From positions 124,001 to 188,000 of the forward strand of contig JAUIJL010000017.1 in the NCBI GenBank assembly GCA_030431255.1: DNA of 64,000 bases, read 5' to 3'. Within the stretch, counting starts at the first letter, position 1; every line of letters starts with the position of its first letter. The notes beneath the pieces are model-generated. The model ran no database searches, was not told where the DNA came from, and worked only from the letters and a program-made list of their open reading frames with translations. The stretch is from Thermoanaerobaculia bacterium. GTDB lineage: Bacteria; Acidobacteriota; Thermoanaerobaculia; Multivoradales; J023. Positions 4,701 through 56,190 of the stretch are shown here, in pieces. A program made the translations under genes and the position numbers.

Positions 4701-7486
4701 GTCTCCGACACCAGGAGCTGATCCCAATAGTCGCGGGTCTTCTGGAAGCTCTCATCGTCCACCCGGGCGTGGAAATCCGTGCCCGTGAGGTGAAAGGCCA
4801 TCACCGTGTCGCCGTCGCGATCGGTTTGCGGCACCATGGTCAGGTCGAAAGCCTGGGTGTTGACCGAGAAGCGATGGCGCCCGAAGCGGATGATGTCGGC
4901 GCCCGATTCGTAGATGTCGGCGCGATCCCGTTGGGAGCGTGCCGCTTCCTCGCGGGCGGTTTTGAGCTTGGAATCGAGCTCGTCCGCCTTGACGCTATCC
5001 CCTAGATCGCGCAGGTCTTTGGACAGATCCCGCAGCTTGGCGACCATGGCGTCGCCGACGAAATAGGCGTTCAGGGCATCGGCGTCTTCCAGGCTCGCCG
5101 AGCGTCGACGAATGCCGTCGAGGATGCGCTCGGCCGCTTGCAGCAAACGCCCGGCCTTGCGCTGACGCTCGTCCATGAGGTTCTGCTTCTTGGAGCTGAA
5201 CGCCTCGTAGATGTCCTCGCGCTTGGTCGACAGCTGATCCAAGAACTCATCGAATTCGCCGAATCGACCCTCGAGCTCTTCGAGCTGGAGCAGGAGCTTG
5301 GAGAGCTGCTCGTCGCATTTCTCCGGGCTGTCGGCCATGGCCAAGCCGCCGGATACGCTTTGGCCGAGCAGCTGGAATTGGGCGCCGAACTCGGCCCGGC
5401 CCTCGGTGGACAACAGCTCCTTGCGCCGCGCCTCGGCGATCGCCCGACCGCGGTTGAGGGCCGCCAGCACCTCGGCGATGCCTTCGAGGATGCCCGTGCG
5501 CTGGGTGGGGTCGGCGATGTCGAGCCCGCCGATGATCTCGGTGAGCATTTCGAGACCCCGGCCGATCTCCTCCAACCGCTCGGCGATCGGCGCGGCGTCG
5601 GTGGTTTTCTCCACCGACTCCACCAGATTGACTTGCTCGTCGATCTCGTCGTGGTAGGGCTGCAAGGCCTCCGGATCGAGCAGGAACTCGACGGTTTCCG
5701 CCGACAGCTCTTCGAGCTTCTTCACCAAGCGATCTTCGAGGGCGTCGACCCGCTCGAGGTCCATGTAGCGCAGCTCTTTCAAGCTGATCAGCTTGCCCCG
5801 TTGGGTGCGCAGCTCCGCCAGGGCGCGCACGAAGGGGTCGACGGTTTCCCGTGGCTCGGAGCGCAGGCGGTGGAAGAGGGCTTCTATCTCTTCTTCGGCC
5901 TTTTCCAGGGATTCCACCGCCCGGGCGCGGATCGCTTGGACCTTCTGGAACTCGCCGACGATCAGGTCGGCGGTCTCGCGTACCTTGGTCAGGGGCTCGT
6001 CCAAATCGCCGACGTCGTCGGAGGAAAGCCAATAGTAGGCGTCGGCCATGCGCACGGTGGAAGCGATCAGGTCTTCGAATCCCTGAACCGAGGGCGCTTG
6101 GTCGATCGCTACCCGGCTGACGCTCAGCGCATCGGAGATGCCGCGCACCAGCTCCGCGTTGCCGACCTTTTCCAAAAAGCTGCCGCCGGTGGGTGCTTGG
6201 GCGGCGAATTCGTCGGATACGTAGGGGGTTTGCCACAGCTGCATGGGGTGCACGCGGGTGGCCTCGTCGTTGGTAGAGCGGAAAATCACCAGCTTGCCGT
6301 CGTTGAACAACGTCATGCCGTGGCAGTGGATCGGGTTCTGGACTTCCTTGCGGATGAGGTTGTAGTTGAGCAGGATCGAACGGCCTTCGAGGCGTTCATG
6401 GAATACGTAGAGCACGTCCTCACCGTTGGGCGAGCGGATCACGCGTTTGAAGTGCATGTCCTCCACCGTGCCTTCGAAGGTCTTGGTGGTGCCGTCCTGG
6501 AGGTAGTAGCCGCCGGGGAAAATGAGGCCGTGGTCCTCGGGCAGGCTTTGGCAAGCCTGGCCGATGGCATCGATGCGGTCGACCTTCTGGGTCCGGGTGT
6601 TGAACACCAGGTACCGCCACACGGTTTCGTTGTAGGGCAGCACCTTCATCACGATCAGGCTGCCCAGCTCGGCGTAGAAAATCTTGGCGTCGGCGAGGCT
6701 TTGGTGAGGCTCGTCCACGTCCTCGCGATAGATACCCTGGCCGTCCTCGGTGTTGTCCTCCACCTTGACCGTCAGGTCTCCACCGACGGTTTCCACGAAG
6801 ACCTTGTCGAGAATCGAAACGTGGGGGTGGCGACCCAAGACGTGGTGGTCGCGGGTGGTTTCAACCCACTCGAAATCGTGAGACGGCGGCAGCACGTCGT
6901 CACGCTCGCCCCGATTGTCGATGTAAGTGGCTTTGCCGTCAGGGGTCAGGGCCCAACGGAAAACCTTGATGTCCTCCAGGGAGTTGCCGGTCTGGAAGAT
7001 CGCCAAGAGCTTGCCGTCGACCTTGCGCAGCTGGAGCAGCTGGGTGTCTTTGTAATATTTGTAGAGCTCTTGGAACTCGGTCAGAAATTTCTTTTCGCTC
7101 AGAAAGTTGCGCGGGTCGTCGCCGGCGACGGATTCGAAGGTGAAACCGCCGGAGTCGTTCTCGCTGAAGGTGTGGAGGCTGAAGACGTCCTCCACCTTGA
7201 TTTCCGTGCGCAAGCCGAGAAAGACGTTGTAACCGAACAACATCAGGTCGCCCACGGTTTGGATATCCCGCGGCACGCAATTGTTCTCGGTGCGGATCCG
7301 CTCGTTGCCGATCACCGTCATTTCGGTGCCACCGAACAGCTCGAGACGCTGCTGGTTCAGGCTTTCGGCGCGAGTCCGCAAGCTCTTGGCGTGCTCTTCG
7401 AGCCGCGCCTTGAGGATTTCGTAAGTTCCCTGCTCGATGTTGTGGCCCGCCTTGGGGCTTTCTTGGGGATCGGTGTCGTTGCTCAT
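1715..7486 (-). CDS. Large DUF3686-AAA ATPase ('DNA repair ATPase' type)
   Basis: A 1923-aa protein. The N-terminal third (about 1-450) is beta-rich and reads like the DUF3686 domain, the conserved front part of proteins labelled ATPases involved in DNA repair. A long helical, Glu/Arg/Leu-rich stretch follows (about 450-850). The AAA module carries Walker A SPPGYGKTT (Lys1319) and Walker B NVLLYLDDIQ (about 1375). The C-terminal 350 residues are Ala/Pro-rich with helices and low-complexity linkers. Family proteins of this type occur beside flotillin and YqiJ-like membrane genes, as here, so a membrane-linked remodelling role is as likely as DNA repair. It is the last gene of the cassette and is separated from the flotillin gene by 181 bases and a hairpin. 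Confidence 0.8.
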   Translation of the reverse strand: MSNDTDPQESPKAGHNIEQGTYEILKARLEEHAKSLRTRAESLNQQRLELFGGTEMTVIGNERIRTENNCVPRDIQTVGDLMLFGYNVFLGLRTEIKVEDVFSLHTFSENDSGGFTFESVAGDDPRNFLSEKKFLTEFQELYKYYKDTQLLQLRKVDGKLLAIFQTGNSLEDIKVFRWALTPDGKATYIDNRGERDDVLPPSHDFEWVETTRDHHVLGRHPHVSILDKVFVETVGGDLTVKVEDNTEDGQGIYREDVDEPHQSLADAKIFYAELGSLIVMKVLPYNETVWRYLVFNTRTQKVDRIDAIGQACQSLPEDHGLIFPGGYYLQDGTTKTFEGTVEDMHFKRVIRSPNGEDVLYVFHERLEGRSILLNYNLIRKEVQNPIHCHGMTLFNDGKLVIFRSTNDEATRVHPMQLWQTPYVSDEFAAQAPTGGSFLEKVGNAELVRGISDALSVSRVAIDQAPSVQGFEDLIASTVRMADAYYWLSSDDVGDLDEPLTKVRETADLIVGEFQKVQAIRARAVESLEKAEEEIEALFHRLRSEPRETVDPFVRALAELRTQRGKLISLKELRYMDLERVDALEDRLVKKLEELSAETVEFLLDPEALQPYHDEIDEQVNLVESVEKTTDAAPIAERLEEIGRGLEMLTEIIGGLDIADPTQRTGILEGIAEVLAALNRGRAIAEARRKELLSTEGRAEFGAQFQLLGQSVSGGLAMADSPEKCDEQLSKLLLQLEELEGRFGEFDEFLDQLSTKREDIYEAFSSKKQNLMDERQRKAGRLLQAAERILDGIRRRSASLEDADALNAYFVGDAMVAKLRDLSKDLRDLGDSVKADELDSKLKTAREEAARSQRDRADIYESGADIIRFGRHRFSVNTQAFDLTMVPQTDRDGDTVMAFHLTGTDFHARVDDESFQKTRDYWDQLLVSETPAVYRGEYLAACLLADAEQEKNGLSLHALQQAILEGAENEKAGLLPVVREYISERYDEGYERGLHDQDAALILEQLVSLYTTAGLLRFAPRPRSLACLFWAFFPEQTARVQWERRSRSLSRLRSAFAHSPAIVRLVDELTEAMIPFLDGLGIETPKEEARLSADYLFEELSKHPVAFVTSAEAEQLRDAFFQYLDLHQSRRDFEEDLQELSDDLSERYHLARAWVQAFLDAGHSEMLGEGKLADLRPSLDEAVVLMITERRLERTTSSALQGKIVEGLLGQHPRVEGRNMSLRLDEMLSRLTAYRHQRVPGFRAFQQARHRLLERRREELRLGEYKPKVMSAFVRNRLISEVYLPIIGDNLAKQMGTVGEGKRTDQMGLLLLISPPGYGKTTLMEYIANRLGQVFVKVNGPALGHGVMSLDPEEAPNATARQEVEKINFALEMGNNVLLYLDDIQHTHPELLQKFISLCDAQRRIEGVWNGRTRTYDMKGKRFAVCMAGNPYTESGEAFQIPDMLANRADTYNLGDILEGKDDVFALSYIENSLTSNSVLAPLTTREPADVGLLVKMAQGEPIQADQLSHDYSGVELEEILSVLKKMLRIQEVVLRVNQQYIESAAQDDAFRTEPRFQLQGSYRNMNKLAEKVVSVMNEKELEALIDDHYAGEAQTLTTGAEANLLKLGELRGTLTEKQAERWDEIKRGFARVQAMGGSDEDPAVRMLGQLGLMSDRLSDIDRAILKATEQAGERAQALVAAQSEAASATAKALAETAKAAASRGGDAAASPGAVDIQLGPELAQALEPYVDHLRKTLEGLGALHSQQTKIAQAASKAAKATAPAEGSGREVTDRLDGVLEKLTELVVTGQKAQPAAPAVPTVPAVPGAPASAGAPPAAGPDLSPYLDRLDQTLRAVAEAPRGAQVVQTLPSGVVELFGELAQAVDENLLPLVQGLGRHMKFVNLEDRKISAHLDRTLKSLDHLKDLVESLSKIDTTGLIKPVS

Positions 7487-7592
7487 GAAATCAAATCCGT
7501 GCGTGCTGACCTACGGTTGAGGGCTGGAAAGCGAAACTAGCGGCAGCGAGCGTCCATTCGGAGCCGTCGGGTCCGAATCGGGATCTAGGAAT

Positions 7593-7667: not shown

Positions 7668-9719
7668 CTATTTCTCCCAAAGATCCCCCAAGGGGGTGTT
7701 GTCCAGGTCGAGCTGGCGGGCGGCGTCCAACAATTGTTTGAGCTGGGCTTGCTTGGTGCCTTTGGCGCTGCCGATCAATCCGGCCAGGAAGGACGACAGG
7801 GTCAAGTTGGCCACGTCTTCAGATTCCACACCGCTGAGCACGTCGCGCAAGTCGTTGGTGAAGCTGGACTTGCCGGAGAGATAGTCCTTGAGCAGCTTCT
7901 GGCTGGTCTGGCTCTTGTCGACAAAGGCGTCGGCCGCCTTGCCCAGGCTGATGGAGTTGACCAAGCGATCGAAGAACACGCTCTCGCCACCGACGATGTC
8001 GATCTTGGCATTCTCCAAGCCGGTGGCGACCACCGTGGCTTGGGCCTCGGCGATGTCCTTCTGAGCTTGCAGCGCCGCCAATTGAACTTCTTTGTCCATC
8101 TCCAGGCGCAATCGGTATTCCTCGTGGTCCCGGGCTTGCTCGTCGAGCACCTTCATGGACTCGGCCTTGGCCGCCAGGCCCTCGGCCTCGCCCTTCAGGC
8201 GCTCGCGAATGGCCTCGCCTTCGGATACGCCCTTTTGACGCAACACCTCGGCTTCCGCTTGACCCTTCTTCTGCAAGACCTCGGCGTCGCGCTCGCCCAC
8301 CTCGGCCTCGGCGAAGCCTTGCTTGCGATAGGCCTCCGCATTGGCCTCTTTGACCCGCACCTCCGCCAAACCCACCTTCTCGATGGCCGCGGCGTCGGCT
8401 TCTTTTACTTGCACGTCCGCCAAGCCGGTGGCCGCGTGCTCGGCCTTGATGCCTTCGGCCCGTCGGATTTTCGCCTGGGCCTCTTTGTCGGCCACCGCCA
8501 AGGCGGCCTCCGCCAGGGTCAGGTCCTCTTTGGCCTTGTGCTTGGAAGCTTGCTCCGCCGCCTCCGCCGCTTTGATGTCCTTGACCAGCCGCTCTTGGGC
8601 CTCGGCCTCGGCGCCGATGATCTTCGATTCCTTGGTTCGTTTCGCCTCTTCCACCAGGCGTAGGCGTTTGATCGCCTCTTCCTCTTCGGCCACGGTTTTA
8701 TCAACCGCCACCCGCTCGCGCACCACGTTGGCGATTTCCCGCTTCTCGTGCTCGACCTCTTTGTCCTTGGCGATGGTCTGCAGGGTGACCTCGCGCTCGC
8801 GGGCCACCACCTCGATCTGCCGCTCTTTCTCCACCCGCTCGGTTTCGACGGCGATCACCCGCTCGCGATTCTTTTCCGCGACCTGGATTTCCCGCATGCG
8901 GTTTTCTTCTTGAATGCCCACAGCCTCGTCGGCCTTGATGCGCGCGGTTTCCGCTTTGAGCCGTTCCTCGGCTTGCACCTTGAGGGTTTCCGCTTGCTCC
9001 CGGGCTTGCACGGATTCGATCTCGCGTTTCTGGCGCGACTCGGCGTCCGCCTGCTGGCGTTCCAGCTCGAGAATCGTCTCCCGGGCTTCCACGTCCTGCT
9101 TTTTGATTTCTTTCTCTTCGTTGCGCTTCCACTCGTTGGTGTGGATGTGCTGCTGGGCGGTCAGCTCGGTGATCTTGCGGATGCCCTGAGCATCGAGGAT
9201 GTTGTGCTCGTCGAGCTTGGAAAGCGGAGTTTGCTCCAAGTAATCGATGGCGCAATCTTCCAGGCTGTACCCGTTGAGATCGGTGCCGATCACCTCGATG
9301 ATCATGTCCCGGAACTCGTTGCGTTTGGTGTAGAGATCCTCGAAGTCGAGCTTCTTACCGGCGGTTTTGAGCGCCTCGGAGAATTTGGCGGCGAAAAGGG
9401 TCTCCAAATGACCCTGATTCGAGGCGCGGTCACAACCGATGGCTTGGGCGACCTTGATCACGTCCTCAACGGTTTTGTTGACGCGCACAAAGAACGTCAC
9501 CTTGATGTCGGCGCGAATATTGTCGCGGCAAATCAGGCCGTCGGATCCGCTACGATCGATTTCGATCGTTTTTACCGAGATATCCATGAACTCGAGTTTG
9601 TGGATCACCGGGAATACAATCGCGCCGGTGAAGAAAACCTTAGGCTCTGGATCCCCGATCCGGGTACGAATCAATGCTTTGCCCTGCTCCGTTTTGATCA
9701 GGCCGATACCGATACCCAT
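7668..9719 (-). CDS. Flotillin-like SPFH protein without N-terminal membrane segment
   Basis: A 683-aa protein. Residues 1-170 form an SPFH/Band 7 domain (ALIRTRIGD, FMDISVKTIEI, VEDVIKVAQAIG). A very long charged coiled coil rich in Glu/Ala/Lys/Arg follows (about 185-560) with repeated EKxGxAEVRVKEA and GxAEAEV blocks typical of flotillins. The C-terminal 100 residues are helical. Most flotillins begin with a hydrophobic segment or hairpin; this one begins directly with the SPFH fold, so membrane binding would need the YqiJ-like partner or acylation. An AAGGAG site precedes the ATG. It lies 33 bases after a truncated copy of itself. It probably scaffolds membrane microdomains together with the OB-fold protein. 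Confidence 0.88.
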   Translation of the reverse strand: MGIGIGLIKTEQGKALIRTRIGDPEPKVFFTGAIVFPVIHKLEFMDISVKTIEIDRSGSDGLICRDNIRADIKVTFFVRVNKTVEDVIKVAQAIGCDRASNQGHLETLFAAKFSEALKTAGKKLDFEDLYTKRNEFRDMIIEVIGTDLNGYSLEDCAIDYLEQTPLSKLDEHNILDAQGIRKITELTAQQHIHTNEWKRNEEKEIKKQDVEARETILELERQQADAESRQKREIESVQAREQAETLKVQAEERLKAETARIKADEAVGIQEENRMREIQVAEKNRERVIAVETERVEKERQIEVVAREREVTLQTIAKDKEVEHEKREIANVVRERVAVDKTVAEEEEAIKRLRLVEEAKRTKESKIIGAEAEAQERLVKDIKAAEAAEQASKHKAKEDLTLAEAALAVADKEAQAKIRRAEGIKAEHAATGLADVQVKEADAAAIEKVGLAEVRVKEANAEAYRKQGFAEAEVGERDAEVLQKKGQAEAEVLRQKGVSEGEAIRERLKGEAEGLAAKAESMKVLDEQARDHEEYRLRLEMDKEVQLAALQAQKDIAEAQATVVATGLENAKIDIVGGESVFFDRLVNSISLGKAADAFVDKSQTSQKLLKDYLSGKSSFTNDLRDVLSGVESEDVANLTLSSFLAGLIGSAKGTKQAQLKQLLDAARQLDLDNTPLGDLWEK

Positions 9720-9752
9720 ATTCTGCTCCTTGCTGAAAGCTCGATCAGTGGT

Positions 9753-10295
9753 CTATGTTGAAGTTTTGGGGGCGACAATGTTGTGCTCGTCGTCGAGCTT
9801 GGTGAGCGGGGTCTGCTCAAAATAGTCGATTGTGCAATCTTCCAGGATATACCCGTTGAGATCGGTACCGATCTCAACGAGGATCAGGTCCCTGAGCTTG
9901 TCGCGTTGGGTGTATAAATCCTCGAAGTCGAGCTGCTTGGCCGCGGTTTTCAGGGCCTCAGAGAATTTGGCGGCAAAGAGGGCCTCCAAATGATCTTGGT
10001 TCGACGCACGCTCGCAACCGAAGATCTGAGCCACCTTGATCACGTCCTCAACGGTTCTGTTGACCCGCACGAAGAACGCGACTTTAGTGTCGGCGCGGAT
10101 TTTGTTGCGGCAGATCAAGCCGTCGGAGCCGCTGCGCTCGATCTTGATGATTTTTGCGGTGATGTCCATGATCTCAACTTGGTGGATCATCGGCCACACC
10201 CAAGAGCCGTTGAAGAAGACCTGGGGTACCTCGTCGCCAACCCGAGTCCGAATTAATGCTTTTCCCTGCTCCGTTTTGATCAGGCCGATGCCCAT
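9753..10295 (-). pseudogene. Truncated tandem duplicate of the flotillin SPFH domain
   Basis: A 180-aa protein begins at an ATG at 10295 with a GGAG site. It matches the first 170 residues of the adjacent flotillin almost throughout: both contain GLIKTEQGKALIRTR, ERSGSDGLICR (DRSGSDGLICR in the full gene) and GTDLNGY. It stops at DEHNI, where the full protein goes into its coiled coil, and ends with the unrelated tail VAPKTST. The region upstream of both start codons also matches (GAGCTTTCAGCAAGGAGC), so the copied unit included the ribosome binding site. The frame is intact, so it may still be made as a stand-alone SPFH domain; I call it a truncated paralog. Confidence 0.8.
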
Positions 10296-10384
10296 CTCCG
10301 CTCCTTGCTGAAAGCTCCACCCGTGATCTACGCTCGGCTGCTGCGCTTCGTGTTGGGTATTGCCATAAAATTTACGACGTCGAG

Positions 10385-11203
10385 CTAGCTGCCCAACAGC
10401 TCCGGCTCCAAGGGCGTGACCCAATACACGCCTTGGGCCGGGTCGTATTGGTAGATCACCGCTTTGCCGCCGTAGCGGAAGGCCGCGGCCGTGTCTTTGG
10501 AGCGAACTTGGATCACCATCGAGCCGGAGTCGACCTCCGCTTGGCCGAAGCGCTGGTCCACCCGTTGCGTGCGGATGGTGCAGGTCTGTCCCACCAGCTC
10601 TTGGCTGCGGGTGCCCGTGCCGGCGCTCATGGCCCGTTGGATCGGCTTCATGGCGGCTGCGGTCGCGGCCATAGCCAGGGCGAAGCTGGCGGCGGCCAGC
10701 AGCAGGGCGATCCACAGCCCGCGGGTCGCCAGCTCCTGGAAGCCCGGAATGAACAACGTGCCGGACAGGCTGAAGAGCCAGCTGAAAATGATCATCAAGC
10801 TCCAGCTGAAGGTCCGCGGCACATCCCCCAAGCCGGCCCCCTCGTGATACGCGGGACCCGAAACCATGGCCTCGGCGTGGCCTTCGAGAGCGTGGGCGTG
10901 ACCGTCTACGGCACCGTCGGCGGCGTCCAGGGCGTCAGGGGCTGAAATGGCATCCGCAAGACCCTCGCCCGCAGCGTCGGCAGCGGCGTCTCCCAGGCCC
11001 TCGGCCAATCCTTCGCCGGCTCCGTCCACGGCCCCATCGATGGCTCCGTCCAGGGCTCCGTCGGCGCTGTCGAGCCACTCGAGGCTGAAAATGCCCGAGA
11101 GGGAAAGCAGCCAGTAGAGGGTCACCGGAATCATCAACCAGGTGAACGGCTCTGTCGGCAGGGAAAAAGCCGCCTCTAGCAGTTTTGTCAGGAATTCATT
11201 CAC
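10385..11203 (-). CDS. YqiJ/NfeD-like membrane protein with OB-fold domain
   Basis: A 272-aa protein. There is an N-terminal membrane segment (about 15-40), then a repetitive Asp/Gly/Ala-rich loop (about 48-125, DGAxDGAxDGA pattern), then two further membrane segments (about 130-185). The C-terminal domain of about 75 residues (QELVGQTCTIRTQRV, GSMVIQVRSKD, VYWVTPLEPE) is a small beta-barrel of the kind found in YqiJ and NfeD partners of flotillins. A GGAGCTAAGG site precedes the ATG. It heads the cassette and is probably the membrane anchor of the SPFH protein. The low-complexity acidic loop is unusual. Confidence 0.75.
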   Translation of the reverse strand: MNEFLTKLLEAAFSLPTEPFTWLMIPVTLYWLLSLSGIFSLEWLDSADGALDGAIDGAVDGAGEGLAEGLGDAAADAAGEGLADAISAPDALDAADGAVDGHAHALEGHAEAMVSGPAYHEGAGLGDVPRTFSWSLMIIFSWLFSLSGTLFIPGFQELATRGLWIALLLAAASFALAMAATAAAMKPIQRAMSAGTGTRSQELVGQTCTIRTQRVDQRFGQAEVDSGSMVIQVRSKDTAAAFRYGGKAVIYQYDPAQGVYWVTPLEPELLGS

Positions 11204-11273
11204 GCCTTAGCTCCAGTCCGTCATCTTGGGGGGCAATACGCGGGCACAAGGTCGGCTATTCGGCAAATTGTCA

Positions 11274-11289
11274 GGATTCCCGGGAATCC
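11274..11289. promoter_or_regulatory. 16-bp perfect palindrome upstream of the flotillin cassette
   Basis: GGATTCCCGGGAATCC is a perfect palindrome 71-86 bases upstream of the YqiJ-like start, inside the 217-base gap that must hold the cassette promoter. Its symmetry and place suggest an operator for a dimeric regulator. I could not find a clear -35/-10 pair next to it. Confidence 0.4.
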
Positions 11290-11420
11290 GTCGGGAAATC
11301 ACTTCAGCAGATCATTGGGGATCGTACCGAGCATCATATTCGATCCCACGAGCCCCGTGCGAGGGCACGGTGATCCCTGGGCCTTTCACCGGCCCCCATG
11401 GATAAGGCGAGAAATCGAGC

Positions 11421-12152
11421 TCAAACTGATCGCGCGAGCGCGCCGTCGACCCGAAGATTTTGCCCGTTGATGTAGGAAGCGGCGTCGGAGAGCAGGAAGG
11501 CGACGGTGGAAGCGATTTCGTCCACCCGTCCGTACCGGCCGGCGGGGATGCGAGCCACGGCTTGCGCGGACTCGGGGTAGCTGTCGATGAAACCGGGCAA
11601 AACGCTGTTCATGCGCAGGCCTTGGCCGGCGTAACGGTCGGCGTAGAGCTTGGTGAAAGCTCCCAGCCCGGCCCGCAGGGCGGAGGAGATGGGAAAGCCC
11701 AAGTCGGGCTCGTAGGCGGCGAAGGTAGAGATGTTGACGATCGCGCCCGATCCCTGATCTTGAAAAATCGGCGTCACCAACCGTGAGAGCCGCACGGTGT
11801 GCATCAACACCAAATCGAGGCCTTGGTGCCAATCGTCGTCGCTCAGCTCCAAGAGCTCGCCCTTGGGAGGATGACCGGTGTTGGCCACCACCCCGTCGAT
11901 TCGACCCCAGCGATCCATGGCTTGCTTCACCAAGCGCTCTAAATCGTCGAGCTCGGTCACCGAGCCCTTCACGCTCAGGGTCTCCGCTCCTTTTTCCTCG
12001 GCCTTGCGGGCTGTATCGACGGAGCCCGAGGGAGAAAGGAGCGCCAGCCGGTGACCCGGTTTGGCCAGCTCCAGGGCGCAGGCAGCACCCATGCCACGGC
12101 TTGCGGCGGTGATCAAATAGACGGAATGCTCGCTGAGGTGATGCTCGCTCAT
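11421..12152 (-). CDS. SDR-family oxidoreductase with atypical active site
   Basis: A 243-aa protein with the short-chain dehydrogenase fold. The nucleotide-binding motif is TAASRGMG instead of TGxxxGxG, the Asn motif is ANTG, and the catalytic Ser is in IVNIS. At the place of the YxxxK pair the protein has S-S-A-L-R, so both Tyr and Lys are replaced. This matches a recognised SDR side group resembling beta-ketoacyl-ACP reductases but lacking the full tetrad. The C-terminal signature VAFLLSDAASYINGQNLRVDG is normal. It may bind NAD(P)H without ordinary reductase activity. It sits alone between the flotillin cassette and a DUF2378-like gene. Confidence 0.85.
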   Translation of the reverse strand: MSEHHLSEHSVYLITAASRGMGAACALELAKPGHRLALLSPSGSVDTARKAEEKGAETLSVKGSVTELDDLERLVKQAMDRWGRIDGVVANTGHPPKGELLELSDDDWHQGLDLVLMHTVRLSRLVTPIFQDQGSGAIVNISTFAAYEPDLGFPISSALRAGLGAFTKLYADRYAGQGLRMNSVLPGFIDSYPESAQAVARIPAGRYGRVDEIASTVAFLLSDAASYINGQNLRVDGALARSV

Positions 12153-12212
12153 GGCTGCAGTCGCTCTTGGATGGACAGAAGTTCAGAAGATGGCCGTGTG
12201 TGGAACGAGCTA

Positions 12213-12767
12213 CTAGGCCTTGCGGGAATCCCACAGCAGGAGAAATTGGGCCCGTCCCTCACGGACCTCAAATTTGCAGCTGACCCCACTATGCCCCATG
12301 GTCTCGGCGGTTCCTTGGTAGAAGCCAGATGCCACGTAGAGGTCCGACTCGCGGAGGGTCTCCGAGATGAGCTGGATCAAACAGCCCCGCTCAGTGATTT
12401 GCAGGACTTCAATCCGTCCCGTGCTGTAGTAGCGGCTGTGCAGATTGGGGAGCCGACGTTTGAGGAAGTGGGTGAAGTCGGCCTGCTTGAAGCTTTGGTA
12501 GACGCCGGTCAAAGAGCGGTGGGCGGAATATTTGCCGATCTCCTCGAGTCGGCTGCGGTCACCGTCGAGAAATTCATCGGCAATGAAACAAAGCACCTTG
12601 TCGAAGAAATCGAAGTCGTACCAATTGGCTTCGAGAATCGGATAGATCTCCAAATCTTTCAGCAATTGGACGATCTTTTTCTCCGCGTCGGGACCGAAGG
12701 TGTCCCTGACGAATTCGACTTTGGTGCGGAGCGAGCCGCCTTTGACTTGGAGTTGACCTGCGCTCAT
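12213..12767 (-). CDS. DUF2378 (TIGR02265)-like protein
   Basis: A protein of 184 aa from the ATG at 12765-12767; a TTG at 12801-12803 would add 12 residues. Neither start has a clear ribosome binding site. The sequence opens with the VKGG start of the DUF2378 family and keeps its features: VRDTFGPDAE, a WY aromatic block (ANWYDFDFFDKV), GKYSAHRSLTGVY, and LHSRYYSTGRIEV. The family is frequent in Myxococcota and has no firm function. It is cytoplasmic with no membrane segment. The family call rests on pattern memory. Confidence 0.6.
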   Translation of the reverse strand: MSAGQLQVKGGSLRTKVEFVRDTFGPDAEKKIVQLLKDLEIYPILEANWYDFDFFDKVLCFIADEFLDGDRSRLEEIGKYSAHRSLTGVYQSFKQADFTHFLKRRLPNLHSRYYSTGRIEVLQITERGCLIQLISETLRESDLYVASGFYQGTAETMGHSGVSCKFEVREGRAQFLLLWDSRKA

Positions 12768-13195
12768 ATGGGAGTAAGCCGGCTCAAATTGGAGCCACCT
12801 CAAGGCTGGGGCTATTTTAGAACATGCGGGCGAATCGAGCCAGAGTGAGACGGCCGCTGCCGCTGCGGTTTCCGCTAGGGGTAGTGGAAATCCGGAGAGT
12901 TTGGCGAGATCATAGATTCAAGAGAATGAGCACATGAGATCTCGGGCTCGGCTTTCGAGATGAAGAGACTGGAGTTTCAGGGACTTGAGGCCTTTCGGCC
13001 CAGGCGGGTTGGATAGAAGATTGAGGCCCTCTCGAGCTCCAGTGTCGGAGTGCGGCAAGCCGATGCTTGGCCCAAATACAACCCTGCGTCGGTGGTGGTT
13101 GTCTTGTAAACAGTCGTAGGGGAGGGCCTTGCGCGTTCCCGTTTTTGGGAGGCGCGAAGACGGTCGGGGGCAAGCCCCGATTCTGGGTGATCAGC
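12768..13195. other. Gene-free gap left of the RloB/AAA module
   Basis: About 430 bases with no credible gene. The part at 12900-13100 is unremarkable. The right end holds a GTAGGGG-type interspersed repeat (listed separately). The gap marks the left border of the lower-GC defence-type module. Confidence 0.5.
13108..13180. repeat. GTAGGGG interspersed repeat, copy A
   Basis: AAACAGTCGTAGGGGAGGG, then an inner GGGAGG inverted block and a GGGGGCAAGCCCCGA hairpin. Copy B (15393-15458) shares AAACAGTYGTAGGGGA and CAAGCCCCGA; copy C at 33711-33779 shares GTAGGGGAGGGCCTTG and GGGGCAAGCCCC. Copies A and B bracket the RloB/AAA gene pair. Confidence 0.6.
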
Positions 13196-13807
13196 TCACC
13201 TGTCTCGACGAAGGGCTTCGATCACCCGGAAAAATTCTGTGGTTGGGTTTCCAAATGGATTGCCGGCTTCTCTGGCGCGCCGCTGCAGGCTCTTGGACCG
13301 CCGGCTCGCATCTTCAAGCCCATTCATTACGGTCGCCAAATCCAGAATCGGGCGACTCTTGTGACAATAGCCAGGGTGGATCCGCTTTAGCCTACTCTGA
13401 GCCTGTTTGCGGTCAATCCAAGCGGTTTGATCTTGATGGAGGAGTATTGCCCATAACTCGATACACGGATTGGAATAGCCGACGCAAAATCCATTGGCCC
13501 GTGCTTGCTCTAAGGCTTCTTGGAAACACGGATGTTCATCGCGGTCGAAAATAACGTGAATAGTCCAAGCTCCTGACTCTCTTTTCAGCTCGTTCTTCTT
13601 CTCTTTTGCCATCTTGACGATTGCAGAAGGAGCGTGGCCGAGTCTGGGATCGACGTTGACTGAAGATAGACCCCAAGATTGAGCAAGTTCTTCCAAGCAT
13701 CTTTTCTCAGTCTTGCCCTCACAGAAAATCCAGTGCAGGTGCCTAAGACTCTTCTGTGCCTTCTTGCGCCGAAGATTGGCGGATGAACTTGCTCGCCGTC
13801 TTCCCAA
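13196..13807 (-). CDS. RloB-family TOPRIM-like nuclease subunit (AbiLii-like)
   Basis: A 203-aa protein. The TTG start at 13807 is chosen because an AGGAG site sits 8 bases upstream in the 16-base gap after the AAA gene. RloB-type motifs are present: IFCEGKTEK near the N-terminus, VIFDRDEH in the middle, SNPCIELW, and a C-terminal NPTTEFFRVIEAL. Together with the upstream AAA ATPase it matches the two-gene RloA/RloB pairs found in restriction loci and the AbiL abortive-infection system. The presumed role is a nuclease released or steered by the ATPase in phage defence. Base composition is clearly less GC-rich than the neighbours, in line with horizontal transfer. Confidence 0.8.
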   Translation of the reverse strand: MGRRRASSSANLRRKKAQKSLRHLHWIFCEGKTEKRCLEELAQSWGLSSVNVDPRLGHAPSAIVKMAKEKKNELKRESGAWTIHVIFDRDEHPCFQEALEQARANGFCVGYSNPCIELWAILLHQDQTAWIDRKQAQSRLKRIHPGYCHKSRPILDLATVMNGLEDASRRSKSLQRRAREAGNPFGNPTTEFFRVIEALRRDR

Positions 13808-13823
13808 GAAACTATCTCCTCAA

Positions 13824-15107
13824 TCAGTTGGGCACAGGATTCCAAATTGGGTCTAGGTTTCCGAGGATGGGCACGCTTCCGACTTGCCCGCGTTCGTGCA
13901 GCACCCTAAGACTCTGGCGAGAACGAATGTCTTTGTAGTCGGCCGCTGAGGATACCTGGGAAGCCCCGTCGGGCTCCTTGTCAATGAGAATAACCTCATC
14001 GCGTCTCAATTGATCCAGAATAGATCTGCTGTGAGTGCTGAAGAGCATCTGGACACCGCGCGTATTGGATTCTTCAGAAGTAAACAGTTTCAAGAGACTT
14101 GCGCACACCTCGGGGTGGAGGCTTGTCTCCAATTCATCAATAACGATAACCCCAGATTCAAGGCTCATGAAATCATCGATGCGCCTAAGCAAGATATGGG
14201 TGCCGCGGCTCTCGCTGTGGGGTGGAAGGGTCCAGGTCTTGCCGTCGGGGCCTTCTCGCTCGAGCACAATTCGGAAATATCCATCGTCATTCAGCAGCGT
14301 TTCTCTAAGCAACTCCAGACCCTGTGGTTTTAAGAATTCGGAAAGCTTCTCTTCGTTAGGCTGTGGATCCTTTGGAAGCCGCTCAACCCGAATTCTCTTG
14401 ATGCCGATATCGAAAGCCTTGATGGCAGCTTCAACTTGATCCCGGCGCTCAGGATCAATAATCGGATCGCTCTTGGTAAAAAGAGGATAGCCACTGAGCT
14501 CGATTCGCTTTTCGCGACGAATCTCAGTGGTCAGTGCTCGATGGACAGCCCCTAGCGTTTCATGATTGTTCTGTGCGGCTGTAGAGAGAAAGAGGCTGTT
14601 TCTCCGGGTCAATTTCGAGAGTGACACTTTCTCGCCGGTCAATGCCGGGCCAAAGTACCAAGGTTCGTCATCATCAGTTTTGCGTTCAAAAAGAACCTGT
14701 CGGCGAGGTTGCCATCGATATAGCCACTCCTCAAGGAATGCCTCCGAGTTGTAAGTGAAGCCGTATTGATAGCGAGTTCCTCCAATGGAAACGTCGATAT
14801 CGAATTCAGACGGCTTTGAGTCGCTCTCTTTCTCCAATTTCCAGGGATTCCAAGGAATATCCTGTTCAGGCTGAAATGAGAATGAGTGTCTCACCAGACT
14901 CAAATGTGAAGTCAAGGACTCGAGCAAGAATGATTTCCCGGCTGCATTTGCTCCGTAGACTCCGAGAACCGGAAGAATACCGTAGCTCAAGCTCGGGTGG
15001 TGAATGCGAAAGTCAGGCTGGTCTTTCAGTGAGGCGGAAACGAAGCTGACTTCAGCAACATCACGAAAGCAAGCAAAGTTCGTAACGCTAAAACGGAGAA
15101 GTTGCAT
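13824..15107 (-). CDS. AAA_15/21-type ATPase (RloA/AbiLi-like)
   Basis: About 427 aa from the ATG at 15107; an ATG at 15122 is also in frame and neither has a strong ribosome binding site. The protein opens with MQLLRFSVTNFACFRD, the usual start of OLD-like ATP-binding proteins. Walker A is GANAAGKS; a signature-like SESRGT block precedes Walker B VIVIDELETSLH; the H-loop is LFSTHS. It is encoded directly before RloB with a 16-base gap. In the AbiL-type model it senses infection and controls the RloB nuclease. The region has lower GC than tex downstream and the SDR upstream. Confidence 0.82.
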   Translation of the reverse strand: MQLLRFSVTNFACFRDVAEVSFVSASLKDQPDFRIHHPSLSYGILPVLGVYGANAAGKSFLLESLTSHLSLVRHSFSFQPEQDIPWNPWKLEKESDSKPSEFDIDVSIGGTRYQYGFTYNSEAFLEEWLYRWQPRRQVLFERKTDDDEPWYFGPALTGEKVSLSKLTRRNSLFLSTAAQNNHETLGAVHRALTTEIRREKRIELSGYPLFTKSDPIIDPERRDQVEAAIKAFDIGIKRIRVERLPKDPQPNEEKLSEFLKPQGLELLRETLLNDDGYFRIVLEREGPDGKTWTLPPHSESRGTHILLRRIDDFMSLESGVIVIDELETSLHPEVCASLLKLFTSEESNTRGVQMLFSTHSRSILDQLRRDEVILIDKEPDGASQVSSAADYKDIRSRQSLRVLHERGQVGSVPILGNLDPIWNPVPN

Positions 15108-15178
15108 GCTGATTACCCACATAACTTGGAGCTGAGAATGAGAAGGATAGGCCGCCTTGAAATCTAAGAGGCGCTTCC

Positions 15179-15207
15179 ATTTTGCCCTTCAGGCCTGTTT
15201 AAGTCAA
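15179..15207 (-). promoter_or_regulatory. Sigma70-like promoter for the AAA-RloB pair
   Basis: On the minus strand TTGACT (15202-15207), a 17-base spacer and CAAAAT (15179-15184) form a fair -35/-10 pair about 70 bases upstream of the AAA start. Confidence 0.5.
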
Positions 15208-15392
15208 TGTTTTGGCCGTTTTCTGGCGAATCTTGGCACTTTTTGGCCTCGGTGGACTACTGGCGCCTGTGCTGCCGCTAGAAGCAGGTAGGCACCTGGC
15301 GAAAGGATCATCGTTAATCTGGGCTGGGGTGAAAAAGCTTTGAGAATCTGGCAGGGCCTTGGAGCCTCGATGTCGCTACCACTATGACAAGG

Positions 15393-15458
15393 AAACAGTT
15401 GTAGGGGATCCCGTTTTAGGAAGGGGGATGACGATCAGAGGCCAAGCCCCGACCCTAC
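15393..15458. repeat. GTAGGGG interspersed repeat, copy B
   Basis: AAACAGTTGTAGGGGATCCC ending in GGCCAAGCCCCGACCCTAC. The outer GTAGGG/CCCTAC ends are complementary, so the whole unit can fold back. It forms the right flank of the defence-type module (see copies A and C). Confidence 0.6.
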
Positions 15459-15492
15459 GACGGTTGAGCCGATGGCGATCCGCTGACGCGGC

Positions 15493-17907
15493 TCAACGAC
15501 GGTTGAATTTGCGCATCAAGTCTTCGACGGTCGCGGGTTTGGCTGGGCCTTTGTTGCCGTTACCGCCGCGTCCGCGGCCTTGGTCGCCCTGGCGTCGTTG
15601 GCCTTTGTTGCCCTTGCCGCCGGGTCCGCCGCCGGGACTACCACTTGGGCCCTTGGGGCCTTGTTGGGGTCGACCTTGACCTTGACCTTGATTCTGACCA
15701 TCGCCGCCGCCGGCTCCTCGGGAGCCGGGTTGGCTTTTCATAGAGAGGGAGATACGACCTCGTCCGTGGTCGACTTCCATCACTTGGACCTTGACGATCT
15801 GGCCCACTTTGACCACTTGGCGTGGATCGTCGACCCATTGGTCCGAGAGCTCGGAGAGGTGCACGAGGCCGTCGCGTTTGACACCGATGTCGACGAAGGC
15901 GCCGAAGTTGGTGACGTTGGAGACGCGGCCTTCGAGCTTCATGCCTTGTTGTAGGTCGTCCAAGCTGGTGACGTCGTCCCGCCATTCCGGGGCGCGGAAC
16001 TCGGGTCGGGGATCGCGACCGGGGCGTTCGAGCTCGGTCTTGATGTCTTCGAGGGTGTAACGACCGACCCCCTTGTCGTCGTCGCGAAATTTGTCGAAGT
16101 TGACCGACGCCACCAATTTGGGATCACCCACCAGCTGATCCACGCCGACGCCGAGCTCGCCGGCCATCTTTTTCACCAGACCGTAACGCTCGGGGTGGAC
16201 CGCGGTGCGATCCAAGGGGTTTTCCGCGTCGTGGATTCTCAAGAAACCGGCGGAAAGCTCGTAGGTTTTGGGGCCGAAGCCGGAGATGTCGAGCAAGGTT
16301 TTACGGCTGGAGAACGGACCGTTTTTGTCCCGGTGGCTGACGATGTTGCGGGCGATGCGCTCGGAGAGCCCGGAAACCCGACGCAGCAGGGACGGGCTCG
16401 CGGTATTGAGCTCGACACCCACTTTGTTCACCGTGCCTTCGACGGTGAGGTCGAGCTCGGAAGCCAGACCTTTTTGGTCGACATCGTGCTGGTATTGACC
16501 GACACCTAGGGATTTCGGGTCGATCTTTACCAGCTCCGCCATGGGGTCCTGAAGCCGTCGGGCGATGGACACCGCGCCGCGGATCGCGACGTCGAGATCC
16601 GGCAGCTCCTCGCGAGCCACCGCCGACGCGCTATAGACCGACGCGCCGGTTTCGGGAACGATGGCCACGATCACCTCGAGCCCAGCGTCCTTGGCGGCTT
16701 GACGGGCGAAGCGCTCGGTCTCCCGGCTGCCCGTGCCGTTGCCCACGGCAATGGCGTGCACACCGTGCTCTTTGACCGCGCGGATCACTTTTTGGGCGGC
16801 GTCGGCCACCCGCGAGGCCGGCTCGATGGGGTAGATCACGTCCGTGGTCAAGACCTGGCCGGTTTTGCCCACCACCGCCAATTTGCAGCCCGTGCGATAA
16901 CCCGGATCCAGGCCCATCACCGGCAACATGCCGAGGGGAGATTGCATCAGCAGGGCTTCGAGGTTCTCGCGGAAGACCTTGATCGCCTCGTCCTCGGCCA
17001 TGCGACGCAGCTCGGAGCGCACCTCGTTGGTGATCGACGGACGCAGCAGGCGTTTATAACCATCGGCCGTGGCTTCGGCGATCTCGCGGCCACACGGGGT
17101 GTCGAGCGGCACGCCCCAGCTTTGGGCCAAACGGTGGGTTTCGAGCTCGTCCTCGACCTTGAGATCCGACAGCAGGAATCCTTCCCGCTCGCCCCGCAGG
17201 ATCGCCAAGAGGCGGTGGGACGGAATGTTCTGGGCGCGCTCGGAGTGGTCGAAATAATCCTTGAACACCTGAGCCGCGGGATCCTCCTCTTTGCCGGTCA
17301 AGGCGCGGACCGAAAGCTCGCCGTGGCTCGCCAGGGATTTGCGCAAGGAGGCGCGATGCTCGGCGTTTTCCGACAGCCGTTCCGCCAGCACGTCGCGGGC
17401 GCCGGCCAGGGCCGCGTCGGCGTCGGCCACCTCTTTTTCCTCGTCGACGAAAGCCTTGGCCAAGGCCTCGGGATCCGCCGACCCTTGGGTCGCCTGCTCC
17501 AACAAGAGATCGGCCAAGGGCTCGAGACCCTTTTCGCGAGCGATTTGGGCGCGGGTGCGTCGCTTGGGTTTGTAGGGCAGGTAGAGATCTTCCAGCTCTT
17601 GTTTGCCGGTGGTGGCGCGGATCAAGGCCTCGAGGTCGTCGGTGAGCTTGCCCTGGCTTTCAATCGATTCGAGGATCGCGTCGCGACGTTCCGCCAGCTC
17701 CAGGAAGTAAACGCGCCGCTTGTGCAGATTCTCGAGCACCTCGTCGTCGAGGCCGCCCGTGGCCTCTTTGCGGTAACGGGCGACGAAGGGAACCGTCGCC
17801 TTCTCGGCGAAAAGCGCCGACGCGGCGGCAACCTGCTGGGGACGAACGGAAAGCTCTTGCGCAATGAGCTCGATGAAGCGTTGCTCCAAAGTATCGGCCG
17901 TGGCCAT
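15493..17907 (-). CDS. tex: Tex, RNA-binding transcription accessory protein
   Basis: An 804-aa protein with full-length Tex architecture: N-terminal helical domain (VPFVARYRKEATGGLDD), central YqgF-like RNase H fold (DPGYRTGCKLAVV), helix-hairpin-helix part (LNTASPSLLRRVSGLS, ISGFGPKTYE), and a C-terminal S1 domain (about 645-715, VSNVTNFGAFVDIGVKRDG). A Gly/Gln/Arg-rich tail of about 70 residues follows, longer than usual and likely an RNA-contacting disordered region. An AGGAG site lies upstream of the ATG. Tex is a cytoplasmic factor tied to transcription and RNA handling. Confidence 0.95.
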   Translation of the reverse strand: MATADTLEQRFIELIAQELSVRPQQVAAASALFAEKATVPFVARYRKEATGGLDDEVLENLHKRRVYFLELAERRDAILESIESQGKLTDDLEALIRATTGKQELEDLYLPYKPKRRTRAQIAREKGLEPLADLLLEQATQGSADPEALAKAFVDEEKEVADADAALAGARDVLAERLSENAEHRASLRKSLASHGELSVRALTGKEEDPAAQVFKDYFDHSERAQNIPSHRLLAILRGEREGFLLSDLKVEDELETHRLAQSWGVPLDTPCGREIAEATADGYKRLLRPSITNEVRSELRRMAEDEAIKVFRENLEALLMQSPLGMLPVMGLDPGYRTGCKLAVVGKTGQVLTTDVIYPIEPASRVADAAQKVIRAVKEHGVHAIAVGNGTGSRETERFARQAAKDAGLEVIVAIVPETGASVYSASAVAREELPDLDVAIRGAVSIARRLQDPMAELVKIDPKSLGVGQYQHDVDQKGLASELDLTVEGTVNKVGVELNTASPSLLRRVSGLSERIARNIVSHRDKNGPFSSRKTLLDISGFGPKTYELSAGFLRIHDAENPLDRTAVHPERYGLVKKMAGELGVGVDQLVGDPKLVASVNFDKFRDDDKGVGRYTLEDIKTELERPGRDPRPEFRAPEWRDDVTSLDDLQQGMKLEGRVSNVTNFGAFVDIGVKRDGLVHLSELSDQWVDDPRQVVKVGQIVKVQVMEVDHGRGRISLSMKSQPGSRGAGGGDGQNQGQGQGRPQQGPKGPSGSPGGGPGGKGNKGQRRQGDQGRGRGGNGNKGPAKPATVEDLMRKFNRR

Positions 17908-54392: not shown

Positions 54393-55044
54393 TCAGGGGA
54401 TGAGGTCGATCTTCAGGGTGGGCCCGATCCACATACACGAGCCACCTTCGCCGAAAGCGTTGACCGCGGTCACCCGATATCGGGGCTGATCTCCGGCAGC
54501 GACGGTGTCGGTGAACGAGGCGGAGCCGTTGATCACCGTGCCGATTTGCTCGGCGCCGGAATCACCCACGAAGTAACGATAAACGCGGTACTCATAGACG
54601 GCGCTGCCGTGGTCGTCGGGCTCCTGCCAGCTGAGGACGACCTCGGTCTCGTCGGCGTTGGCATAGGAGGCGTCGAGCCGCGGAGCTGCCGGTAGATCCG
54701 GGCCGTCGTAGGCGGCAAAGAGCCGTGGGCCACTGCTCTGCCGGGCCAAAGTCAGCAGCTCGGTAGCGGAGTTGGGACCGGCCTTTTCGCAGGCGCCGGT
54801 GCAGCCGTCGGCGTATACGAAAACCACCCGGCCCTCACGATCCACTTGGATATCGTTGAAGTCGAGCAGGGCTCGCCGGCGTTGGAGCCGAAGCCCTCCG
54901 GGGCCGGATAGACGGCGAAGGTCGCGCCGCCGTCGCCGCGGGCGATACCGCTGGAATCGTCAGCGTCGCGATCAGCAGGCCGACGGCAAGTAATAGATTA
55001 GAAGCACCGATTTGCGCTCGTCTTCGGATCGATGAATTCAACAT
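54393..55044 (-). pseudogene. Decayed secreted BNR/fibronectin-III protein
   Basis: The signal peptide (MLNSSIRRRAQIGASNLLLA) is in one frame. The next recognisable protein text (DDSSGIARGDGGATFAVYP) is in a second frame, and LLDFNDIQVDREGRVVFVYA plus the fibronectin-III part (VVLSWQEPDDHGSAVYEYRVY) in a third. At least two frame changes and loss of most of the N-terminal body are needed. Intact relatives are sialidase/BNR-type secreted proteins with a C-terminal Fn3 domain. The 150-codon end frame has no ribosome binding site or signal peptide of its own. Genuine decay is likely; a sequencing error could explain one shift but not the missing body. Confidence 0.78.
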
Positions 55045-55236
55045 ACTATTTCACCTGGCTCACGGGTGCAGAGCCCTGCTCACGGGTTCAGAGATGCCGG
55101 TAACCCGCGAGGTGACGGGGCGGACGACGGGAGGGTGCGATAAGGCATTCTGTCGAGACCCGTCGTCCTTGCCTATGGGGAGAATACCCAGGCAGAGCGT
55201 CTATTTGCGCCCAGAAACGACCCGGAATCCTCCGGG

Positions 55237-55265
55237 TTGAGATCGATAAATGAGTTTGATAACGT
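55237..55265 (+). promoter_or_regulatory. Possible promoter of the secreted unknown gene
   Basis: TTGAGA (55237-55242), 17-base spacer, TAACGT (55260-55265), about 50 bases before the ATG at 55314. The -10 match is weak. A 7-bp hairpin (ACCCGGA/TCCGGGT, 55220-55237) overlaps the -35. Confidence 0.3.
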
Positions 55266-55313
55266 CGATTTTCACTCGTCAGACCGCCTCACACCGGTTC
55301 GTGGAGGAGCTCA

Positions 55314-56183
55314 ATGATCAAAACCTTTAATCGGGCCGTGTTTACCTTAGCTCTGGGCTGCGTCACCTTATTGACCCTGGGTGCCTTGAGCGCTGTCCCT
55401 GCCGTCGGCAGCGGTCTCGAAGACCTCCAGATCAGCGGTCAGACCGTGACCGGTCGGATCGCGCTCCCGGGCGGAATTGAAGCGAGCCTGGAGATCACCT
55501 TCGAAAACGTCCAGAACCTGACCCTCGCCAATTTGGGTCTCTCCGCCGAGCTCGTCTCCCTCACGGATCCTGGCCTTCTGGCCCGATTCCCCTCGGGCGC
55601 CGTCGCGTCGATTCCCGCCGCCTTCCCGGTCCTGCTCCGATTCGTGCCGCCGGCGACGAGCACTCTCTCCTTCCAGGGCGTGGTGTCGGCGGAAATCTAT
55701 ACCCACCATCTCACCTACACCCCGGGCACTCAGCTGCGCTTGTTCAGCGCCGAGCCCGGGGGGCCGTTCGAAGACGTCAGCGCGTGGATGGATTCCGGCA
55801 GCTATCGGGTAGGTGCCGTGCATCCCGAGTTCTATCGCGAGCAGCTGATCGTGCTCGATACCCGCATGTTCCAAGCGGTGATCTCCCAGCAAGCGGATGC
55901 CCTGGAGCAAACCCTCGACAACCACGTGGGCGATATCGACACGAACGTCTTCTTGCAGCTGGAAAGCCTGATCGACCAGGCCCGCACCCAGATTTCCAAT
56001 GACGACGTCGAAGGGGCGCAAGCCACTCTCTCGAGCTTGCAGCAGACCGTGGTGTCCCAATCCGGCGAGTCGATTCCCGACGCCTGGGCCGCAGACGAAG
56101 AGCTGACCAACGTGGCGGGACGGCTGCGTGCCGATATCGCTCGGCTCAGCCATAGCCTGCAACGGCAGGGCGGGTCCTCCTGA
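55314..56183 (+). CDS. Secreted protein, possibly DUF6689-like
   Basis: A 289-aa protein with a strong GGAGGAG site. Signal peptide about 1-33 (FTLALGCVTLLTLGALSAVP). The N-terminal body (LEDLQISGQTVTGRIALPGG, LTLANLGLSAELVSLTDP, ASIPAAFPVLLRFVPP) is beta-rich; the end (about 190-285) is helical (LEQTLDNHVGDIDTN, LESLIDQARTQISNDDVEGA). I recall such N-terminal text in the DUF6689 family, with low certainty. It immediately precedes the FHA-GAF signalling operon (7-base gap). Confidence 0.65.
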   Translation: MIKTFNRAVFTLALGCVTLLTLGALSAVPAVGSGLEDLQISGQTVTGRIALPGGIEASLEITFENVQNLTLANLGLSAELVSLTDPGLLARFPSGAVASIPAAFPVLLRFVPPATSTLSFQGVVSAEIYTHHLTYTPGTQLRLFSAEPGGPFEDVSAWMDSGSYRVGAVHPEFYREQLIVLDTRMFQAVISQQADALEQTLDNHVGDIDTNVFLQLESLIDQARTQISNDDVEGAQATLSSLQQTVVSQSGESIPDAWAADEELTNVAGRLRADIARLSHSLQRQGGSS

Positions 56184-56190
56184 GCCGGGT

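Follow-up and report, generated by a model that had tools for sequence, protein, structure and literature searches.

How flotillin cages and those of other SPFH proteins start, close and choose their size is, to our knowledge, not settled. The isolated SPFH domain (also termed the PHB domain) of B. subtilis FloT (YuaG) forms an approximately 14-mer beside smaller forms, does not bind liposomes and, as a GFP fusion, is diffuse and apparently degraded fast (PMC4312047). In the cage formed by human flotillins, by contrast, C terminus and coiled coils stabilise oligomerisation; the SPFH1 face, with its many tryptophan residues, dips into the membrane, and a hinge lies at Tyr160/163 (PMC11260169). 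In the passages of these two papers drawn on here, the results point in different directions for a protein made of the SPFH domain only.

From published excerpts on gene organisation, the coil-less SPFH paralogue and the SPFH duplication within an operon are both already known. SPFH11a and SPFH11b are two adjacent SPFH genes in one operon, credited to gene duplication, in which the coil-less SPFH11b stands beside the coiled SPFH11a, and NfeD1a–SPFH1a.1–SPFH1a.2 operons carry an SPFH duplication behind an NfeD-like gene, this being a stomatin-type SPFH1 member for which the excerpt mentions no truncation (PMC2636767). Operons of YqiJ/YuaF, flotillin and AAA+ genes are described in connection with the Psp response, the cited sections describing no SPFH-only extra gene (PMC11237479), and the nine SPFH proteins of P. 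aeruginosa are stated in the part cited not to have originated by gene duplication (PMC13086221). Titles and abstract beginnings in the open-licence literature gave, among the matches listed, no natural SPFH-only flotillin copy, and no open-licence literature was found on a flotillin with DUF3686. Against these sources, an SPFH-only copy in a flotillin operon is apparently new.

The locus described here lies in a stretch of 64,000 nucleotides, referred to as the window, from a Thermoanaerobaculia bacterium whose genome (G000) comprises 10.2 Mb in 54 contigs and is 98.8% complete. We use the name SHORT for a 180-codon SPFH-domain gene and FULL for the flotillin-like gene of 683 amino acids that follows it. 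Like SPFH11b, SHORT adjoins a coiled counterpart, on the same strand and 33 nt away; unlike SPFH11a/b, which as described belong to another SPFH subfamily, occur in several genomes and were modelled from seven sequences per type, SHORT and FULL are flotillin-like, less diverged (75% identical) and known from one genome only, and the tree that places them as sisters holds no SPFH11 row. In domain content SHORT is like the FloT PHB domain, which oligomerises without a coiled coil, although that is an engineered fragment and SHORT a natural gene; FloT itself is described with an N-terminal membrane hairpin, which FULL seems to lack. With the YqiJ/YuaF–flotillin–AAA+ operons the locus shares the same three gene kinds side by side.

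Gene order and the duplicated unit

The upstream gene, SHORT, FULL and the DUF3686 AAA+ ATPase form an operon-like run on the minus strand (Table 1). Homologues of FULL were collected at 80 loci (the best 80 of 510 in a GTDB scan); the ATPase has a homologue at 75 of these 80, and the homologue of the upstream gene lies upstream of flotillin in the 18 loci listed. Two of the five loci lacking the ATPase (L019 and L021) span more than 6 kb downstream, so that the ATPase is truly not adjacent there; in L021, from a genome of the same genus, 10004–16495 shows no DUF3686 ATPase homologue within 6 kb downstream of flotillin. The upstream gene has no Pfam match above cut-off and no NCBIfam match, and may be called YqiJ/YuaF-like by its position and by analogy with the operons described in the cited part of PMC11237479. 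As judged from gene order, the succession of membrane partner, flotillin and AAA+ protein appears otherwise standard, with SHORT as the departure.

Table 1. Features of the flotillin-type locus, in window coordinates
Feature	Coordinates	Strand	Basis
SHORT, stand-alone SPFH-domain gene, 180 codons + TAG	9753..10295	minus	ORF and translation, Band_7, AlphaFold2 model
FULL, flotillin-like, SPFH domain and long predicted coiled coil, 683 aa	7668..9719	minus	translation, weak FloT match
First copy of duplicated unit (leader, RBS, SPFH codons)	9773..10330, ends approximate	minus	repeats spaced 575-582, alignments
Second copy of duplicated unit (leader, RBS, SPFH codons of FULL)	9194..9755, ends approximate	minus	repeats
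Leader and ribosome-binding site AAGGAG ahead of SHORT	10297..10330	minus	repeat, sequence
Copied leader and ribosome-binding site ahead of FULL	9722..9755	minus	repeat, sequence
Upstream gene, located as YqiJ/YuaF/NfeD-like membrane partners are	10385..11203	minus	tblastn homologue at 79/80 loci
Giant downstream AAA+ ATPase, DUF3686, 1923 aa	1715..7486	minus	PF12458 E 2.4e-212, AAA domains

FULL combines an SPFH domain, a long coiled coil and an NfeD/YuaF-like neighbour, the helix being predicted at low confidence and the likeness of the neighbour being by position. Its match to the NCBIfam FloT model (E 8.2e-6) scores 25 against a cut-off of 700, and on its sequence it is not itself a FloT equivalog. 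A Pfam hmmscan assigned FULL to no family at E up to 0.01, yet with the same Band_7 model the genome DNA yields its SPFH domain at 49 bits; the missing protein match may reflect composition filtering triggered by the coiled coil, an effect that could hide such flotillins from routine annotation. In its predicted model a long helix runs from residue 174, at a mean pLDDT of 62 and with residues 169–183 under 50, which is too weak to set domain limits.

SHORT matches Pfam Band_7 (PF01145) over the cut-off at E 6.7e-13 and ends at residue 180, with no long coiled coil after the SPFH domain. It starts with MGIGLIKTEQ, read from the sequence as lacking an N-terminal hydrophobic helix or hairpin; FULL and six homologues from the family, with starts picked by script, likewise begin close to the SPFH domain. 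A search of solved structures by sequence gave no match for SHORT at E up to 1 or for FULL at E up to 0.01. By fold, residues 4–163 of the AlphaFold2 model of SHORT (pLDDT 80) align to residues 1–157 of chain B of 9bq2, a human flotillin (Z 15.0, rmsd 2.0, 153 residues), at 11% sequence identity, and its other fold matches are prohibitin, HflK/C, erlin and stomatin. Compared with the human flotillin-1/2 cage (9bq2 / 9l3g), the predicted fold covers these first 157 residues only, and therefore SHORT would retain the membrane-side module and lack the wall and the cap.

The copies of the duplicated unit are recognised from three direct repeats, namely 9208–9507 / 9790–10089 (300 nt in register, 82% nucleotide identity, spacing 582), the two leaders with their ribosome-binding sites (85%, spacing 575) and 9194–9213 / 9773–9792 (90%, spacing 579). 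The proteins align over 174 residues, SHORT having one extra codon near residue 168 and two fewer at its start, and the similarity stops at FULL residue 175. By the in-register repeats and the 75% of residues shared, SHORT arose through tandem duplication of a unit some 580 bp long, in which the leader and ribosome-binding site were also copied. The TAG at 9753–9755, which lies inside the leader copied ahead of FULL, is the stop codon of SHORT, and on a gapped alignment of the leader sequences (TAGACCACTG before FULL, TAGATCACGG before SHORT) the last approximately six residues of SHORT (APKTST) and its stop appear to derive from that leader and not from the flotillin gene. The frame is open from ATG to TAG, with no stop, frameshift or lost start of the kind that marks a pseudogene.

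These observations bear out the initial annotation, which had proposed from the letters that part of a flotillin operon was duplicated in tandem and that a separate SPFH domain resulted, as an intact 180-codon copy with its own copied ribosome-binding site ahead of the full gene. It had also placed the end of SHORT exactly where the coiled coil should begin. The end of similarity at FULL residue 175 and the modelled helix from 174 agree in putting the 3' breakpoint near FULL codon 175, tentatively about where the long flotillin helix is predicted to begin; the model is weak at this point.

Scanning for the sigma-70 consensus, we found no promoter-like site between the upstream gene and SHORT, and one inside SHORT on the minus strand at 10177–10150 (2 sites against 0.7 by chance, sd 0.8). 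FULL could be transcribed apart from SHORT from this internal site, the count being near chance.

Some further features of the region and genome may be recorded. Antisense to the ATPase gene, the plus strand of the window holds an 800-codon open frame (5138–7540) that is probably a by-product of high third-position GC. On the minus strand at 13196–15122, an AAA_21 ATPase (PADLOC AbiLi, 5.9e-68) is followed by an RloB-like protein (Pfam RloB 3.3e-23, PADLOC AbiLii 1.2e-14), an AbiL-like gene pair that is likely an anti-phage defence pair. The genome gives seven matches to Band_7, two of them being SHORT and FULL. Its contig C5 carries a neighbouring pair of SPFH (Band_7) genes (54912–56427; L146 and L147), open over 328 and 313 residues, that possibly encode a two-subunit SPFH complex.

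Age of the duplication and selection on SHORT

The comparison of Ka and Ks between the copies, which the initial annotation had suggested, gives a dN of 0.13–0.14, a dS of 0.67–1.22 (three methods) and a dN/dS of 0.10–0.19 (0.18 by NG86, 0.19 by LWL85 and about 0.10 by YN00). The 105 differences in 173 aligned codon pairs are not uniform over codon positions (29/15/61 at first, second and third; chi-square p=1.3e-7), and GC3 is 0.746 in SHORT against 0.733 in the SPFH part of FULL. On these sequence measures the duplication is old. The opposing reading named at the outset, a fresh non-functional duplication or an assembly artefact, is contradicted by this dS and dN/dS, by which the duplication is neither fresh nor an artefact, and an artefact is further ruled out by copies that differ at 103 of 498 aligned nucleotides. 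Recent gene conversion was also considered and rejected, there being no low-dS stretch (windowed dS 0.49–0.89).

In a protein tree, built without locus L007 (near-identical to L006), SHORT and FULL are sisters with support of 100/99. The end branch of SHORT (0.78) is the longest in the tree, where the median is 0.11, and that of FULL is about zero, so that in this tree nearly all the change since the duplication lies on SHORT. A branch of this length speaks for SHORT being a decaying duplicate, once tolerated or useful and now under weak or no selection, whose protein, if made, does nothing specific. A purely neutral history is, however, rejected by three kinds of evidence, the first of which comes from codon models fitted to 10, 6 or 4 of 28 aligned sequences (codons 2–166, fixed topology with parts of low support). 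For 4, 6 and 10 taxa respectively, omega on the SHORT branch is 0.167, 0.115 and 0.130 against 0.032, 0.045 and 0.023 elsewhere; an omega of 1 on that branch is rejected (p 0.032, 0.00027 and 0.0098), as is equality with the background (p 0.00078, 0.023 and 0.00027). With 10 taxa, a model in which one raised omega (0.094) is common to both copies has a lnL of -3478.40, and that with SHORT alone -3479.22. The two fit equally well, and therefore relaxation special to SHORT is not demonstrated.

The second and third kinds of evidence are independent of dS, with FULL treated as ancestral. Of 65 sites that are invariant in 51 homologues, 8 are changed in SHORT relative to FULL, compared with 27 of 58 variable ones (Fisher p 4e-5); by conservation class the changes fall at 6/41 sites conserved at 90% or more, 17/44 at 50–90% and 10/14 below, these 41 changes being counted with residue 1 and without residue 22, a gap-rich column. 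Neutral evolution was simulated 60,000 times from FULL as ancestor, 20,000 times with each of three kappa values, up to 41 changes. No run placed so small a share as 14 of the 41 at positions with conservation of at least 90%, and only 0.14–0.25% placed 8 or fewer at invariant ones. The 41 replacements are also conservative, with a mean BLOSUM62 score of 0.27 against -0.53 to -0.40 under neutrality (p 0.002–0.006), and none creates a Gly or Pro in SHORT where 4.4–4.9 were expected; here, as in the simulations and the counts by structural position, the 41 changes include residue 22 and leave out residue 1. The intact frame, which also stands against decay, is weak evidence for function by itself, 14–25% of the neutral simulations being stop-free by chance.

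By structural position, taken from alignments of 51 (A1, of 74 available) and 29 (A2) GTDB loci with the window's two sequences, the changes are dense in the strands at 38–54 (8/17) and the helix at 131–142 (7/12) and sparse in the helix at 100–121 (4/22), these being descriptive counts. Of the 14 changes in the positions with at least 90% conservation, thirteen give residues absent from the 51 homologues, which could be early decay and counts in favour of the decaying duplicate. SHORT carries Trp at positions 32 and 34, as does 1 of the other 52 rows, that of the flotillin from isolate J023 (L017). The motif WVWP (residues 32–35, window 10191–10202) is common to SHORT and this locus (622–1167) and is not in FULL despite their placement as sisters; convergence or an older state could account for it.

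From the branch omega, the avoidance of conserved sites and the conservative replacements, we conclude that SHORT made a constrained protein, and was therefore under purifying selection, for much of its history, with demands that were relaxed or shifted; on the same sequence evidence a never-functional duplicate is unlikely. Selection may have ended recently, which would be compatible with all the neutrality tests. That SHORT is a functional protein today we regard as probable.

Occurrence in related genomes

Among the genomes searched, SHORT was found only in G000. All seven genomes of the family carry a flotillin, and the presence in close relatives for which the initial annotation had asked was not seen, the six others having one full copy each; these are other species and not sister strains, one genome being sampled per species and the same-genus flotillin being 62% identical to SHORT. 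In G001, which is of the same genus, flotillin abuts the upstream gene at -3 nt. The proposal that SHORT is a conserved gene of the clade finds no support in the genomes searched.

Wider searches gave the same picture. A flotillin match was found in 15 of 59 relatives and in 17 of 396 genomes of the phylum, G000 included in both; the 14 of 58 and 16 of 395 others carry one match each, two of the latter being weak (G083 and G094), and the family, relative and phylum sets overlap. The best 80 of the 510 GTDB-scan loci showed no second SPFH copy within the DNA spans examined, which reached at most 8 kb to each side. In all, 105 of 106 flotillin loci, those from outside that scan reaching about 1.5 kb to each side, have a match, of which 103 have one match and the remaining two are the window's own. 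The spacing between the upstream gene and flotillin is -6 to 526 nt in 122 loci outside the window's genome, some genomes being repeated; of these empty sites only L066 is spaced above 300 nt, and no second SPFH match is found there.

In Actinomycetes (the class of a Streptomyces), 38 of 246 genomes match, and in none does an SPFH-only gene adjoin a full one. One actinomycete (G494) has two long-frame flotillins at separate places. Another (G538) has two damaged flotillin genes, L141 (G538:C19) and G538:C38 81036–81404, one running out of frame after approximately residue 170, past the SPFH domain, and the other fragmented and with a TAG; we read them as the decay of whole genes. Two further stretches of this genome (L142 and L143) were covered by tblastn only. 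Both the decay of flotillin copies elsewhere and the absence of SHORT from every relative searched add to the case for a decaying duplicate, and the occurrence in a single genome, with no conservation seen across species, would more generally speak against a function.

Possible roles of SHORT

The best explanation we can offer, held tentatively and at a little short of an even chance, is that SHORT co-assembles with FULL as a limiting subunit; if SHORT is functional at all, co-assembly becomes quite likely. The duplication of about 580 bp left an SPFH-only gene ahead of an intact FULL, each with a copied ribosome-binding site, and both would be transcribed and translated, SHORT being made in step with FULL. 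SHORT would fold as SPFH1 plus SPFH2 at the membrane-side end of a flotillin assembly and touch FULL subunits or further SHORT subunits sideways, and it could not extend the coiled-coil wall. Present in substoichiometric amounts at the rim, it would then be a terminator or rim subunit by which the nucleation or size of the flotillin scaffold is limited. Wall growth could be halted by an SPFH-only copy that enters the rim, or the copy could compete from a place on the membrane, and the capping or poisoning of flotillin assemblies that had been suggested at first is plausible by analogy. The more specific idea of a natural terminator, in which a coil-less SPFH subunit born of a truncating duplication is built into the rim of the bacterium's flotillin cage and determines how large or how numerous the cages are, we consider doubtful. 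The oligomers of the isolated FloT domain, the fold matches of SHORT, and its Trp32 and Trp34 beside the Trp-rich SPFH1 of the human cage speak for the limiting subunit. Against it stand the human cage, whose assembly uses the coiled coils and the C terminus, both absent from SHORT, and the FloT PHB domain, with its lack of liposome binding and its diffuse, apparently short-lived GFP fusion.

The decaying duplicate survives best among the rivals, and we rate it as unlikely but a serious contender, the evidence for past constraint and the open frame being set against its long branch, its unusual residues and its isolation. Less likely again is that SHORT works alone, outside flotillin oligomers, as a small SPFH adaptor that binds lipid or a partner and might dock the AAA+ ATPase or the membrane protein encoded upstream. 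The two Trp residues of its SPFH1 part, Trp32 and Trp34, would suit such a role, as the human cage touches the membrane by a Trp-rich SPFH1 in the account cited above, and E. coli QmcA–YbbJ is, by its PDB title, a solved SPFH–NfeD complex; the FloT PHB domain, however, showed no liposome binding and spread diffusely through the cytoplasm in the portion of PMC4312047 cited, and the binding of a partner by SHORT is conjecture from analogy. We favour the limiting subunit over such independent binding. That the short frame is a translated leader, whose translation or mRNA structure tunes initiation of FULL 33 nt downstream with the peptide as a by-product, would fit the close spacing and the copied leader and ribosome-binding site, but is very improbable given that FULL has its own ribosome-binding site and that constraint at the protein level is not expected of such a role.

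How much of assembly is due to the SPFH domain and how much to the coiled coil differs between the bacterial and human papers, in the parts cited. An SPFH-only paralogue kept beside its parent offers a natural test of these shares, in which the gain or loss of SHORT should alter assembly if the SPFH rim matters. SHORT and FULL also represent an SPFH pair early in divergence, comparable to how SPFH11a and SPFH11b may have begun.
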